Origin: Solimonas sp. K1W22B-7
GTDB taxonomy: Bacteria > Pseudomonadota > Gammaproteobacteria > Nevskiales > Nevskiaceae
DNA length: 64,000 bases
Direction: 5' to 3'
Assembly (NCBI RefSeq): GCF_003428335.1
Contig: NZ_CP031704.1
Span: forward strand, 5,158,071-5,222,070
In this document: piece after piece, positions 12,518-40,578 of the stretch
How the letters are laid out: each line of letters opens with the position of its first letter
Numbering within the stretch: position 1 is the stretch's first letter
Translations under genes and position numbers: made by a program
The notes under the pieces: model-generated
Database searches by the model: none
What the model saw: the letters and a program-made list of their open reading frames with translations, nothing else
What the model was told of the DNA's origin: nothing

Positions 12518-12905
12518 TTGTGTCTTCCAATGGCTTGGTGAGCGTAAGCGAATGCTTTTGATGGTCCGGGTTCCCTCGTAGCGGCGCCCGCACAGGGGTC
12601 GGGCGCAGGGGTCGAGCCGGACAGGATGTCCGGCCGAGGACACGCAGGCCATGGATGGCCTGTGTGTCCGACCCCTCAGCGACCGACCACTGGGCGGGGC
12701 ACCCCGCGTAAGCGGGGCGCCGATACAAGGGTACGTTTTCTTTTGGTTACTTTTCTTTGTCGTATAACAAAGATAAAGTAACTCGCCCTTAGGCGAAATA
12801 CACCTCCAGAGAAACGCGGCTCCTGACCGGCGTAGTCGCCGGCACCACCGCTGTGCGCGTGCCTCGATACACCGCTGCGCGGCACTCGGCATGATCGGTT
12901 CGGCT
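12518..12905. repeat. about 390-bp dispersed intergenic element, copy 1
   Basis: This stretch is closely similar over its whole length to 27996-28386 (a few substitutions and small indels). Landmarks in order are CTTCCAATGGCTTGGTGAGCG, a segment rich in GGGTCGGGCG/GGATGTCCGGCC palindromes, GGGTACGTTTTCT, an imperfect stem-loop (GTTACTTTTCTTTG pairing with CAAAGATAAAGTAAC) and a 3' end CCTCGATACACCGCTGCG. Open frames across it are not conserved as proteins. It has no transposase or obvious target-site duplication. Together with 12440-12505 it fills the gap 12436-12921. Confidence 0.8.
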
Positions 12906-28051: not shown

Positions 28052-28386
28052 CCTCGTAGCGGCGCCCGCGCAGGGGTCGGGCGCAGGGGTCGAGCCGGAC
28101 AGGATGTCCGGCCGAGGACACACAGGCCATGGATGGCCTGTGTGTCCGACCCCGTCCGCGCTCGACCACTGTGCGGGGCACCCCGCTTCAGCGGGGCGCC
28201 GATACAAGGGTACGTTTTCTCTTGGTTACTTACTCTTTGACGTATATCAAAGAGAAGTAACTCGCCCTTGGGCGAAATAGACCTCCAGAGAGCCGCGGCT
28301 CCTGACCGGCCTCGTGGCCGGCGTTACCGACAAGCTGCGGCGCGTGCCTCGATACACCGCTACGCGGCACTCGGCATGAACGGTTC
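27996..28386. repeat. about 390-bp dispersed intergenic element, copy 2
   Basis: Near-full copy of 12518-12905 in the same orientation. The stem-loop region reads GGTTACTTACTCTTTGACG then CAAAGAGAAGTAACTCGCC. Several differences between copies fall on both sides of the stem, consistent with structure being kept. It occupies the rest of the 27651-28405 gap; no gene is supported there. Confidence 0.8.
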
Positions 28387-36652: not shown

Positions 36653-37297
36653 ATGCTGAATCCCTTTGCGCAAGCTGGCTTCATCCTTTCCTGTGCCCGC
36701 CTCGACCAGTTGCCGGTCGACGCCCTGCCGGAAATCGCCTTTGCCGGCCGTTCCAACGCCGGAAAATCCAGCGCCATGAACCTGATCTGCAGCCAGAAAC
36801 AGCTGGCCCGGGTCAGCAAGACCCCCGGCCGCACCCAGCTGATCAACCTGTTCGGGGTGCCGGGGGGCCGCTTCGCCGACCTGCCCGGCTACGGCTACGC
36901 CGAGGTGCCCGAACAGGTCCGCCGCGACTGGGGCAAGCTGATCGGCCAGTACCTGGAGGGGCGCCAGAACCTGGTCGGGATCGTCCTGATCATGGACATC
37001 CGCCACCCCATGACCGACTACGACAAGCAGATGCTGGCCTGGGCCGGCCACCGCGGCCTGCGCGTCCACTGCCTGCTGACCAAGGCCGACAAGCTCGGCT
37101 TCGGCGCCGCCAAGACCCAGCTGCTCAAGGTCCAGAAGGAACTGGGCGAGGACGCCACCGGCCAGCTGTTCTCCTCCGAAACCCGCCAGGGCCTGCCGGA
37201 AGCGCAGAAGCTGCTGCGGGACTGGATCGGGATCGATGAGACGGCGACGTTTGCCAAAGTTGGTGGTGGACTTGGGGAGCTGACGCCCAAGGCGTAG
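36653..37297 (+). CDS. engB: ribosome biogenesis GTPase EngB (YihA/YsxC)
   Basis: A 214-residue TrmE-Era-type GTPase needed for large ribosomal subunit assembly. G1 is AGRSNAGKSS, G3 is DLPGYGYA, G4 is TKADK and the G5-like segment is FSSETR. Length and start match the family; GACAAT upstream is a plausible -10 element. It converges on polA across a 500-bp gap that holds repeats and a probable small RNA, as yihA converges on polA-spf in E. coli. Confidence 0.96.
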   Translation: MLNPFAQAGFILSCARLDQLPVDALPEIAFAGRSNAGKSSAMNLICSQKQLARVSKTPGRTQLINLFGVPGGRFADLPGYGYAEVPEQVRRDWGKLIGQYLEGRQNLVGIVLIMDIRHPMTDYDKQMLAWAGHRGLRVHCLLTKADKLGFGAAKTQLLKVQKELGEDATGQLFSSETRQGLPEAQKLLRDWIGIDETATFAKVGGGLGELTPKA

Positions 37298-37306
37298 CCT
37301 TTATAG

Positions 37307-37491
37307 CCCCTCGCCCGCTTGCGGGAGAGGGCGTTTTGCTTACTGGGGAGTGACTCAATGTCACTCCCCAGCCCGGCAAAACGCGGGAGAGGGCTTCTGT
37401 AAAACCCCGCTCCGTTCAACACGGCCACCTTTTACAGAAACCCTCTCCCGGCCTCCGGCCACCCTCTCCCGCTCGCGGGAGAGGGGACAGA
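37307..37491. repeat. composite palindromic repeat, GGGAGAGGG/TTCTGTAAA type, copy 1
   Basis: Nested inverted repeats: CCCGCTTGCGGGAGAGGG at the left, a perfect hairpin CTGGGGAGTGA...TCACTCCCCAG (37343-37371) inside GCGTTTTGC...GCAAAACGC, then TTCTGTAAAA...TTTTACAGAA and CCCTCTCCCGCTCGCGGGAG. A shorter relative lies at 42092-42225. It follows engB by nine bases and may end its transcript. No open frame here is supported. Confidence 0.75.
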
Positions 37492-37528
37492 AAAGTTTGG
37501 TTGGAACTTCCCGCTTTTCCGCCGCACA

Positions 37529-37568
37529 AATAAAAATGCCCAGTGAACCGGGGGAGGATTCACTGGGC
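37529..37568 (-). terminator. strong intrinsic terminator of the candidate small RNA
   Basis: A perfect 10-bp stem, GCCCAGTGAA/TTCACTGGGC, with loop TCCTCCCCCGG, is followed on the minus strand by ATTTTTATTTG. No annotated gene other than polA lies upstream on this strand, and polA has its own hairpin 23 nt after its stop. Confidence 0.88.
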
Positions 37569-37645
37569 AACTGCTCCGGCTTGGGGGCGCCGGATACCGT
37601 CCAGGGAGTCGAGACGGTTGAGTGTGACAGGGAGAATCAGCACTC
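37529..37645 (-). ncRNA. candidate small RNA with C-rich hairpin loops (Spot 42 position)
   Basis: A transcript of about 117 nt is predicted from the promoter at 37651-37680 to the terminator at 37529-37568. Four hairpins can form. GAGTG/CACTC has a loop containing TTCTCCCTG. ACCGTC/GACGGT has a loop containing GACTCCCTG. TCCGGC/GCCGGA has loop GCCCCCAA. The terminator stem GCCCAGTGAA/TTCACTGGGC has loop TCCTCCCCCGG. Every loop exposes a C-rich run able to pair with Shine-Dalgarno sequences. No coding frame with a start site and binding site fits. The gene sits downstream of polA, on the same strand, and converges on engB, exactly as spf (Spot 42) does in E. coli. C-rich loops also recall sX13 of Xanthomonas. 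Sequence homology to these was not testable here. Confidence 0.68.
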
Positions 37646-37650
37646 GAAGG

Positions 37651-37680
37651 ATTAGATGGGGTCGTGCCCGCTAAGTTCAA
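37651..37680 (-). promoter_or_regulatory. sigma-70-type promoter of the candidate small RNA
   Basis: On the minus strand TTGAAC (37680-37675) and TCTAAT (37656-37651) are 18 bp apart. TCTAAT matches the -10 consensus at five of six bases. Transcription would begin near 37645. Confidence 0.6.
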
Positions 37681-37700
37681 TGGAATTTCGAACTCCCAGA

Positions 37701-37732
37701 AAAGTGTTTTATTCGATAAAATAAAACACTTT
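37701..37732. repeat. AT-rich perfect inverted repeat upstream of the small RNA promoter
   Basis: AAAGTGTTTTAT (37701-37712) and ATAAAACACTTT (37721-37732) are perfect 12-base arms around an AT-rich 8-base spacer. It lies 21 bp upstream of the -35 element of the candidate small RNA. It could be an operator or a second polA terminator stem; low GC makes it stand out. Confidence 0.55.
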
Positions 37733-37800: not shown

Positions 37801-40578
37801 TCAGCTGCTTGCGTGCCCTTCTGCCTCATGGGCGGCATCCCAGTTGGAACCGGTGCCCCAGTCCGCCACCAGCGGTACCTCCAGGGCCGCCACGCGGCAC
37901 ATCAACCCTGCGATCTCCGGGGCCTGCGCCTTGAGCACGGCCGCCGGGCCCTCGAAAACCAGCTCGTCGTGCACCTGCATGATCATGCGGATGTCCGGCA
38001 GGTTTTCGCGCAGGTGGCGCTGCAGCGTGATCATCGCCTTCTTGATCAGGTCCGCCGCGGTGCCCTGCAGCGGGGCGTTGATCGCGGTGCGTTCGGCGTA
38101 TTGGCGCAGGCCCTGGTTCCGGGAGTTGATGTTGGGCAGGTAGAGGCGGCGGCCGAACAGGGTCTCGACATAGCCCGTCTCGTGCGCCTGCACGCGGGTT
38201 TCGTCCATGAAGCGCTTCACGCCGGGATAGCGGCCGAAGAAGCGGTCGATGTAGTCCTGGGCCTCGCCGCGCGGAATCGCCAGCTGGCGCGCCAGGCCGA
38301 AGGCCGACATGCCGTAGATCAGGCCGAAGTTGATCGCCTTGGCGGCGCGGCGCTGCTCGGCACCGGTTTCCTCCAGCGTCAGGCCGAAAACCTCGGCGGC
38401 GGTGGCGCGGTGGATGTCCAGGCCACGGCGAAAAGCATCCTGCAGGCGCTCGTCGCGCGAGAAATGCGCCATCAGGCGCAGCTCGATCTGCGAGTAATCG
38501 ATCGACAGCAGGTCATTGCCGGCCTCGTGCACGAAGGCCTGGCGGATGCGCCGGCCCTCGGCCGTGCGCACCGGGATGTTCTGCAGGTTGGGGTCCGACG
38601 AGGACAGGCGCCCGGTGGCGGCGATGGCCTGGCCGTAGGAGGTGTGGACGCGGCCGGTGCGCGCGTTCACCGCCAGCGGCAGCTGGTCGGTGTAGGTGGA
38701 GCGCAGCTTCTGCATGCCGCGCCAGTCCAGGATCAGGCGCGGCAGCGGGTGCTGCGCGGCCAGCTCTTCCAGCACGTCTTCGGCGGTGGAGGGATCGCCC
38801 TTGGGCGTCTTGCCCAGCACCGGCAGCTGCAGCTTCTCGAACAGGATGGTCTGCAGCTGCTTGGGCGAGCCCAGGTTGAACTCGCCGCCGGCCTGCTCGA
38901 AGGCAGCCTTCTGCAGCTCGTCCATGCGCTGCGCCAGCTCGCCGCTGATCTTGCGCAGCAGCGCCACGTCGAGCTTGACGCCGGCCTGCTCCATCGACGC
39001 CAGCACCGGCACCAGCGGCATCTCGATCTCTTCGTAGACCTTCAACAGCGCCGGGTCGGCCAGCAGCTTCGGATGCAGCACCTGGTGCAGTCGCAGCGTG
39101 ATGTCGGCGTCTTCGGCGGAATAGGCGGCGGCCTGGTCCAGCGCGACCTGGTTGAAGGTCAGCTGGTTCTTGCCCTTGCCGGCGACGTCCTCGAACTTGA
39201 TCGTGCGATGGCCCAGGTATTTTTCGGCCAGCGTGTCCATGTCGTGGCGGTTGCCGGCGGCGTCGAGCACGTAGCTTTGCAGCATGGTGTCCTGGGCCAG
39301 GCCCTGCACCACGATGCCGTGCTGCGCCAGCACGTTGATGTCGAACTTGGCGTGCTGCGCCAGCTTCGGGATCGCGGGATCTTCCAGCACGCTGCGCAGG
39401 CGCTCGCGCAGCGCTGCCAGCTTCAGCTGCTCGGGTGCGCCCAGGTAGTTGTGCGCCAGCGGCAGGTACCAGCCCTGCCCGGCTTCCACCGAGAAGGCCA
39501 GGCCGACGAGATTGGCGGCGTTGGACTCCAGCGAGTCGGTCTCGGTGTCGAAGCACACCAGCGGCGCGGCGCGCAGGCGCGCGATCATGGCGTCGAAGGC
39601 GGCCTCGTCGAGCACGCATTCGACCTGCGTCGGCTGGACGTTGGCGGCCGGCGGTGGCGGAGTCTCGGGCGCGGCGGCAGGCACGGACGGCGCAGGGTCC
39701 TGCGGTGCCGGCGCGTCGGCGGGTCGCGACAGTTCGTCGGCCCAGCGGTTGAAGCCGAGGCGGCGGTACAGCGCGGCGAGCACGCCGGTGTCGGGCTCCT
39801 GCGGGCGCAGCTCGTCCAGCGTCACCGGCAGCGGCACTTCGCAATGGATCGTCGCCAGCTCGCGCGACAGCGGCAGCTTGGGCAGGGCCTCGCGCAGCTT
39901 CTCGCCGACCTTGCCGCCGACCTTGTCGGCCTGCGCCACGAGCTTGTCGAGCGTGCCGTATTCCGTGATCCACTTGGCGGCGGTCTTGGGGCCGACGCTG
40001 GGCACGCCCGGGATGTTGTCGACCGTGTCGCCCATCAGGGTGAGGTAGTCGATGATGCGCTCGGGCGGCACGCCGAATTTCTCGACCACGCCGGCCGGGT
40101 CCATGCGGACGTTCTTCATGGTGTCCAGCAGGTGCACGCTGTCGTTGACCAGCTGCGCCATGTCCTTGTCGCTGGTGACGATCAGCACCGGCCGGCCGAT
40201 GGCACAGGCCTGCTTCGTCAGCGTGCCGATGACGTCGTCGGCCTCGTAGCGCTCCACCGCCAGCACCGGCAGGCCCATGGTGCGCAGCATCTCGGTCACC
40301 AGCGGGAACTGCGACAGCAGATCCTCCGGGGTCTCGCTGCGATTGGCCTTGTACTCGGGGTAGAGCTCGTTGCGGAACACGTCGCCGCGCGGGTCGAACA
40401 CCACGCAGAAGTATTCCGGCGCGTATTCCTTCATCAGCTTGCGCAGCATGTTGCCCATGCCGTAGACGGCGCCGGTGGGCTGGCCGTCCGGCGCGGTCAG
40501 CGGCGGCAGGGCATGGAAGGCACGGAACAGCCAGGACGAGCCGTCGATCAGGATCAGCGGCTTGTCCGTGTCGTTCAT
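37801..40578 (-). CDS. polA: DNA polymerase I
   Basis: A 925-residue repair and Okazaki-fragment polymerase. The 5'-nuclease domain covers about 1-290 (LIDGSSWLFRAFHALPP, YEADDVIGTL, SDKDMAQLV). A Pro/Ala linker precedes the 3'-5' exonuclease domain, whose catalytic residues look intact (FDTETDSLE, HAKFDINVL, YSAEDADITL), so proofreading should work. The polymerase domain has motif A DYSQIELRLMAH, the O-helix RRAAKAINFGLIYG and motif C VHDELVFE. The ATG at 40578 overlaps the lysA stop (ATGA), so polA is translationally coupled to lysA. That arrangement is unusual; polA is generally separate in E. coli and Pseudomonas. Confidence 0.97.
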   Translation of the reverse strand: MNDTDKPLILIDGSSWLFRAFHALPPLTAPDGQPTGAVYGMGNMLRKLMKEYAPEYFCVVFDPRGDVFRNELYPEYKANRSETPEDLLSQFPLVTEMLRTMGLPVLAVERYEADDVIGTLTKQACAIGRPVLIVTSDKDMAQLVNDSVHLLDTMKNVRMDPAGVVEKFGVPPERIIDYLTLMGDTVDNIPGVPSVGPKTAAKWITEYGTLDKLVAQADKVGGKVGEKLREALPKLPLSRELATIHCEVPLPVTLDELRPQEPDTGVLAALYRRLGFNRWADELSRPADAPAPQDPAPSVPAAAPETPPPPAANVQPTQVECVLDEAAFDAMIARLRAAPLVCFDTETDSLESNAANLVGLAFSVEAGQGWYLPLAHNYLGAPEQLKLAALRERLRSVLEDPAIPKLAQHAKFDINVLAQHGIVVQGLAQDTMLQSYVLDAAGNRHDMDTLAEKYLGHRTIKFEDVAGKGKNQLTFNQVALDQAAAYSAEDADITLRLHQVLHPKLLADPALLKVYEEIEMPLVPVLASMEQAGVKLDVALLRKISGELAQRMDELQKAAFEQAGGEFNLGSPKQLQTILFEKLQLPVLGKTPKGDPSTAEDVLEELAAQHPLPRLILDWRGMQKLRSTYTDQLPLAVNARTGRVHTSYGQAIAATGRLSSSDPNLQNIPVRTAEGRRIRQAFVHEAGNDLLSIDYSQIELRLMAHFSRDERLQDAFRRGLDIHRATAAEVFGLTLEETGAEQRRAAKAINFGLIYGMSAFGLARQLAIPRGEAQDYIDRFFGRYPGVKRFMDETRVQAHETGYVETLFGRRLYLPNINSRNQGLRQYAERTAINAPLQGTAADLIKKAMITLQRHLRENLPDIRMIMQVHDELVFEGPAAVLKAQAPEIAGLMCRVAALEVPLVADWGTGSNWDAAHEAEGHASS

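Follow-up and report, generated by a model that had tools for sequence, protein, structure and literature searches.

Spot 42 (RF00021) of E. coli is a σ70/CRP-controlled sugar regulator encoded in the arrangement polA-spf-yihA. In Pseudomonas, ErsA (Pseudomon-1, RF01719) is encoded between polA and engB, depends on σ22, responds to envelope stress, and represses the porin gene oprD, according to the accessible part of one report (PMC8575079), and the part available of another likewise gives the σ22 dependence (PMC5819304). For sX13 (RF02232) of the Xanthomonadaceae, the accessible part of PMC3771888 describes constitutive expression, regulation of the hfq mRNA, and repression that depends on the C-rich loops as well as on G-rich motifs near start codons. 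For the anti-hemB family (RF02837; ncS04) of Burkholderia, the table in the available part of PMC5688073 lists no change of ncS04 in seven conditions. Rfam lists ErsA, sX13, and anti-hemB without a clan. In a literature search that left most subscription papers outside, we found none naming sX13 and ErsA together and none naming Solimonas with a small RNA.

The window (the whole stretch of DNA analyzed here, 64,000 nucleotides from Solimonas sp. K1W22B-7) carries a small RNA gene between polA and engB that is comparatively well supported and whose expression is predicted (Table 1). The first-pass annotation had proposed a small RNA with four C-rich hairpin loops at this position, and all of its elements are found in place, including the perfect terminator stem, polA upstream on the same strand, and engB converging as in E. 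coli polA-spf-yihA. The segment folds to -53.5 kcal/mol, compared with -30.5 +/- 3.4 kcal/mol for shuffled sequences (z = -6.7), and 0 of 200 shuffles were as low. As RNA, the loops of hairpins 1 to 4 read CUCCCUG, CUCCCUG, CCCCCAAG, and CCUCCCCC. This small RNA adds a new branch to a known kind; its promoter is corrected here, and its distribution is far wider than first supposed. It probably acts in trans in the envelope-stress response, driven by RpoE and blocking G-rich ribosome-binding sites with its loops; transcription, RpoE dependence, pairing of the loops with Shine-Dalgarno sequences, and target classes are predictions here. The basis of this reading is the structure, the covariation, the conserved promoter motif, the synteny, and the RpoE orthologue.

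Table 1. Predicted parts of the small RNA locus and its neighbors (window coordinates)
Feature	Position	Strand	Remarks
Small RNA gene	37529-37645	minus	~117 nt; predicted 5' end; fold z -6.7, covariation over 37 relatives
-35 element GAACTT	37673-37678	minus	σE/AlgU-type; sequence and conservation upstream of homologues
-10 element TCTAA	37652-37656	minus	16 bases from -35; sequence and conservation upstream of homologues
Hairpin 1	37620-37645	minus	CTCCCTG in loop at 37628-37634; helix 1: two-sided changes in 4/6 pairs, 97.7% of cells paired
Hairpin 2	37597-37617	minus	ACTCCCTGG in loop; CTCCCTG at 37602-37608; helix 2: two-sided changes in 4/7 pairs, 96.9% of cells paired
Hairpin 3	37575-37594	minus	CCCCCAAG in loop; CCCCC at 37583-37587; fold
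Hairpin 4, intrinsic terminator stem	37538-37568	minus	10 perfect pairs, then ATTTTTATTTG; loop CCTCCCCC, CCCCC at 37550-37554; helix 4: two-sided changes in 11/12 pairs
Terminator U-tract ATTTTTATTTG	37527-37537	minus	sequence
polA	37801-40578	minus	upstream neighbor, same strand as small RNA; ORF; tblastn query recovers PolA beside homologues
engB (ysxC/yihA)	36653-37297	plus	converging neighbor; ORF; tblastn query recovers EngB beside homologues

Other structured elements lie in the window as well. Between polA and the promoter, at ~37695-37727, an AT-rich inverted repeat (AAAGTGTTTTATT / AATAAAACACTTT) is partly retained in close relatives and may be either the polA terminator or an upstream promoter element. 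Between the small RNA and engB, at 37300-37490, hairpins with GGGAGAGGG/CCCTCTCCC are members of a repeat, the cores of which occur 146 and 139 times in 1.6 Mb. Two Rfam TwoAYGGAY matches (12609-12675 and 28084-28156) are near-identical copies of one hairpin element. Because one of its cores, GGCCATGGATGGCC, occurs 13 times in all on the two strands of 1.6 Mb of the own genome, the pair is more probably an interspersed repeat than two separate small RNAs.

The first-pass annotation had expected compensatory stem changes if the RNA were real, and lack of conservation of promoter, hairpins, and loops if it were not; the former were found, and all three parts are conserved in relatives. A pattern derived from the small RNA and searched in named genomes returned 32 stretches, mainly from Solimonas, Nevskia, Hydrocarboniphaga, and Panacagrimonas with a few records otherwise labelled. 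Among these stretches, L046, L045, and L042, all from records named Solimonas, repeat the RNA sequences of the same-genus loci L002-L004, which points to a Solimonas-type bacterium for the window. DNA similarity alone matched the RNA in 24 of 61 genomes, own included. In the alignment of 37 members, 94.4% of the pair cells of the given structure (30 pairs) are standard, compared with at most 46% for slid structures. Changes on both sides occur in 19 of the 30 pairs (13.0 in shuffles; 0 of 500 shuffles as high) and in 158 cells (49.0 in shuffles), and the covariation score is 0.435, versus 0.211 after shuffling and a maximum of 0.096 for slid structures. RNAalifold, run on the same alignment, gives 26 pairs with two-sided changes in 19. 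The CTCCCT of the hairpin 2 loop is invariant across the 37 members. Hairpin 3 has 81.1% of its cells paired and zero two-sided changes in this alignment, a low result that arises because 17 of the 37 rows are aligned one column off; once the wider set is aligned to the model, hairpin 3 shows two-sided changes as well.

That model, R1, is a covariance model built from the 37-member alignment, and its E-values are rough by construction. It scores the window copy, which is among its building sequences, at 111 bits. At E <= 0.001, R1 finds the RNA in 59 of 61 sampled genomes of the order, the own genome among them; of the good genomes 54 of 55 match, and 21 of 21 genera are represented. At least two matches occur in 26 of the 61 genomes, and no genome has more than six. 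Across the class, 113 of 369 genomes, from 89 of 272 genera, contain an R1 match at E <= 0.01. The idea of a lineage-specific regulator, which the first reading of the sequence had entertained, is contradicted by this spread. The family is not universal either, because only 10 of 239 genomes in a phylum sample matched, one of them outside the class. Arrays of five to six copies are found in order-mates (L321, L322, L323) on stretches that also contain PolA and EngB; CTCCCTG is kept in 16 of 16 of these copies and CCCCC in 15 of 16, and hairpin 1 is variable. For promoters, loops, and neighbors, R1 was searched on 100 of the 110 loci of the set (L189-L198 left out; hit genomes G084, G410, and G412 outside the set), giving 116 matches.

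σE promoters follow a consensus of the type GGAACTT-N16-TCTNA. The promoter of the window RNA had been annotated as TTGAAC (37675-37680), 18 bp, and TCTAAT (37651-37656); these letters are there, but the σ70-type reading of them is not supported, and GAACTT-N16-TCTAA of the σE/AlgU (RpoE) type is the better reading of the sequence. The block conserved among homologues consists of GAACTT, 16 bases, and TC, which we take to be the RpoE/AlgU consensus, and the two bases preceding it vary (GG, GT, TT, CT, CG). In a first set of loci, scanned with a permissive expression (GAAC[TC][TA], spacer 15-17, several -10 forms), a motif of σE type occurs in 45 of 55 rows; of the ten misses, two come from a second register of one RNA already counted and one from truncation at a contig end. 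The tandem copies in L011, L039, L052, L058, and L060 each have their own σE-type motif. Of the 116 homologues, 98 have a motif score of at least 8.5 and 72 a score of at least 9. The corresponding expectations per shuffled set are 6.65 and 0.7, and the stretch immediately upstream gives 3 of 116 and 0. The start of the -35 element is fixed 29-34 nt before the R1 match in 84 of 116 homologues at the lower score and 61 of 116 at the higher (1.0 and 0.15 in shuffles), and the spacer is 16 in 74 of the 84. R1 extends only about two bases upstream of the RNA and so cannot have selected for the promoter.

The own genome encodes one RpoE orthologue (TIGR02939, 296.6 bits; curated cut-off 236.15), and the ORF after rpoE resembles RseA, as named by eye. 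Both features of the class of σE-dependent small RNAs, the promoter type and an RpoE orthologue, are present. The strict σE motif shows no enrichment in the own genome as a whole (4 sites versus 5 for the reversed control) or in front of the genes called in 1.6 Mb (1 versus 2 in the control). The other three strict sites precede a SIMPL-type gene, hfq, and yajC, named by eye from translations. On the minus strand of L062 (~1501-1528), GAACTT-N17-TCTGA occurs close to where miaA ends, ahead of hfq, these genes also being named by eye.

The two variable bases in front of the conserved block are incompatible with a TTGAAC -35 element. This weighs against a loop-acting small RNA with a constitutive σ70 promoter and a partial resemblance to σE promoters, even though TTGAAC-N18-TCTAAT can be read as a weak σ70 promoter, a σE-type motif was sought but not found in front of the own rpoE, and constitutive expression is what the accessible part of PMC3771888 describes for sX13. 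The σE motif is missing at both sX13 loci examined, which also counts against transferring that mode of expression to the window RNA. We consider σ70 control unlikely.

The loops of the small RNA are its most exposed part in the predicted fold, and putative binding of Shine-Dalgarno sequences by them is plausible. CCC occurs in 318 of 447 apical loops of the 116 homologues, compared with 34 of 650 flanking controls and 55 of 318 after shuffling, an excess that is partly circular given the C-rich loops that went into R1; CTCCCTG occurs in 78 of the 116. Targets were sought in 1.6 Mb of the own genome with home-made, crude gene calls and signal-peptide rule. For loop 1, an enrichment of signal-peptide genes among 1152 called genes (10 of the top 30 versus 3.1 expected) was rejected, as many calls were apparently spurious frames and the signal was not significant after filtering to 313 genes. 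Among these 313, no loop significantly favors signal-peptide genes (p = 0.17, 0.41, 0.58, and 0.37 for loops 1 to 4), and scrambled loops 1, 2, and 4 performed as well as the real ones. The exact complement CAGGGAG occurs in seven ribosome-binding regions, four of them of signal-peptide genes versus 1.6 expected (p = 0.047, uncorrected), but plain GGAG shows a similar excess (41 of 152 versus 34.0 expected, p = 0.039). The unclear outcome of this test, together with an RNA that is nearly wholly paired and repeats its loops, would also suit loops that serve as a protein-binding site, or as a sponge for another G-rich RNA, instead of blocking ribosome-binding sites. We find that doubtful: sX13 needs its C-rich loops together with G-rich motifs near starts for repression, in the available part of PMC3771888, and R1 matches sX13 loci.

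Synteny is an independent proof of the family, because R1 contains no protein information. By tblastn, with flanks of mostly 1.5-2.5 kb and some contigs ending early, PolA and/or EngB flank the RNA in 86 of 100 loci, own included (both 46, EngB only 23, PolA only 17). Nearly all of these have PolA upstream, encoded in the same direction as the RNA, with EngB converging from downstream; the arrangement is reversed in L079, L086, L120, and L176, PolA is downstream and opposite in L157, and both are downstream in L170. The 14 loci with neither include four (L091, L123, L140, L156) with matches to cytochrome c4 and DsbA, the next genes in the window; in the flanks of the remaining ten, tblastn found none of the four proteins. 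In one further locus set, 25 of 35 copies carry the motif by a fixed expression. Of 13 copies with no PolA or EngB within ~1 kb, seven (L324, L325, L329, L330, L332, L335, L339) retain the σE-type motif and six lack it. R1 matches distant from polA/engB are also seen at L173, L188, L134, L155, and L184, in the vicinity of genes for ribose-5-phosphate isomerase A, a BamE-domain protein, a PLD-domain protein, a GGDEF protein, and an alpha/beta hydrolase, respectively, and these are relocated copies or chance.

In most loci with PolA detected, the RNA is encoded after polA and in the same direction, as would be expected of a mere end of polA transcription, with a 3' UTR structure and terminator but no separate RNA. 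Such an origin is very improbable in view of the conserved promoter between polA and the RNA, the separate promoters of tandem copies, the 23 of 100 loci with EngB but no PolA in the flank (some flanks being short), and the motif retained away from both genes. A second role as the messenger of a small peptide, as annotated for spfP within E. coli spf, was rejected and has next to no likelihood, since the closed 27-codon frame from GTG in the window copy is matched by closed frames of at least 12 codons in only 7 of 37 members (24-29 codons, all GTG), and any ATG in the first 110 nt occurs in only 12 of 37.

At gathering thresholds, Rfam has zero matches at 37529-37645, its two matches in the window being located elsewhere; at a permissive threshold, the best match is anti-hemB and the second sX13. 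The first-pass annotation had chosen ErsA and sX13 as comparators, rightly. R1 matches sX13 loci and, weakly, ErsA. Like ErsA, the window RNA combines the polA-engB intergenic place with a σE/AlgU-type promoter and has a C-rich loop in the terminator hairpin. ErsA follows polA in 4 of 4 Pseudomonadaceae loci scanned, and in 19 of 25 loci of this family polA is followed by a σE/AlgU-type motif. R1 matches 2 of these 25 loci at E < 0.01 (L221, 28.5 bits; L202, 18.9 bits), and seven further loci, including L206, at E 0.04-0.63. With so few Pseudomonadaceae loci matched by R1, the case for kinship with ErsA depends less on the model than on place and promoter.

With sX13, the window RNA shares the place directly downstream of polA, stable hairpins, C-rich apical loops, and a terminator. 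It has four hairpins, whereas sX13 has three stem-loops and an unstructured 5' end, as described in the part of PMC3771888 available. When the Rfam models suggested in the first-pass annotation were applied at the window locus, sX13 gave 23.0 bits (E 0.04), below its gathering cut-off of 50, and ErsA (RF01719) and Spot_42 had zero matches up to E = 10. Class-wide, the sX13 model matches 16 of 369 genomes, three above the cut-off, and 0 of 14 controls. R1 coincides with 3 of 3 sX13 matches above the cut-off and 12 of 21 at E <= 0.01. The link to Spot 42 stands for position, with the same orientations as in polA-spf-yihA; kinship in sequence was rejected, R1 also being unmatched to E. coli spf up to E = 10.

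Anti-hemB has the loop CUCCCUG in common with the window RNA, and its model matches there at full length with 45.5 bits (E 2.3e-9), narrowly below the cut-off of 49.5. The match covers hairpins 2-4, and the model is without hairpin 1. Under stricter filters, the anti-hemB and sX13 models have zero matches in the own genome. The direct neighbors of the window RNA are polA and engB. Of the 150 class-wide anti-hemB matches listed, 93 coincide with R1. Among the 22 above the cut-off, R1 reaches 10 and misses 12, so that anti-hemB has a core beyond the reach of R1. Eight of the 10 carry a promoter motif of at least 8.5, the exceptions being L142 and L177. L177, the strongest anti-hemB locus, lies near hemB (ALAD); PolA and EngB were not found in its flanks, and the motif is missing. 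As a class-wide marker, the anti-hemB model was discarded: it matches 202 of 369 genomes at E <= 0.01, with only 20 above the cut-off. Its weak matches are partly chance, because 4 of 14 named control genomes match, none above the cut-off. The missing motif at L177 and at both sX13 loci agrees with constitutive sX13 and with ncS04 being unchanged in seven conditions.

The window copy matches R1, which it helped to build, has at least two C-rich loops, and shows polA/engB synteny, the features by which we assign members of this superfamily. The window RNA, sX13, anti-hemB, and ErsA seem to us to be branches of one superfamily that Rfam keeps apart. Tentatively, an ancestral RpoE-dependent small RNA at polA-engB may have been widely kept in the broad Gammaproteobacteria, which include the Burkholderiales in the GTDB grouping. 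ErsA, sX13, and anti-hemB might descend from it, sX13 and the hemB-side anti-hemB branches having lost the RpoE promoter and been rewired, and several lineages of the order having multiplied the gene to up to six copies.

We propose that outer-membrane stress would release RpoE (σE/AlgU) from its anti-sigma factor, and that freed RpoE would transcribe the small RNA gene from GAACTT-N16-TCTAA. Hairpin 4 would end transcription, and the small RNA would accumulate. Almost wholly paired, it would have little except its loops free, and these (CUCCCUG twice, CCCCCAAG, and CCUCCCCC) may pair with G-rich ribosome-binding regions. A group of mRNAs, among them most likely those for envelope and secreted proteins, would then be translated less.

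One model detects the RNA of the polA-engB locus in almost every genome sampled from the order and in 89 of 272 sampled genera of the class. Its σE-type promoter predicts when the small RNA would be made. In addition, it links RNAs that are listed separately in Rfam and suggests a testable rule: the same place and the same C-rich loops, with the σE switch missing in some branches. Genomes with up to six copies would allow a test of dose versus loop variety.
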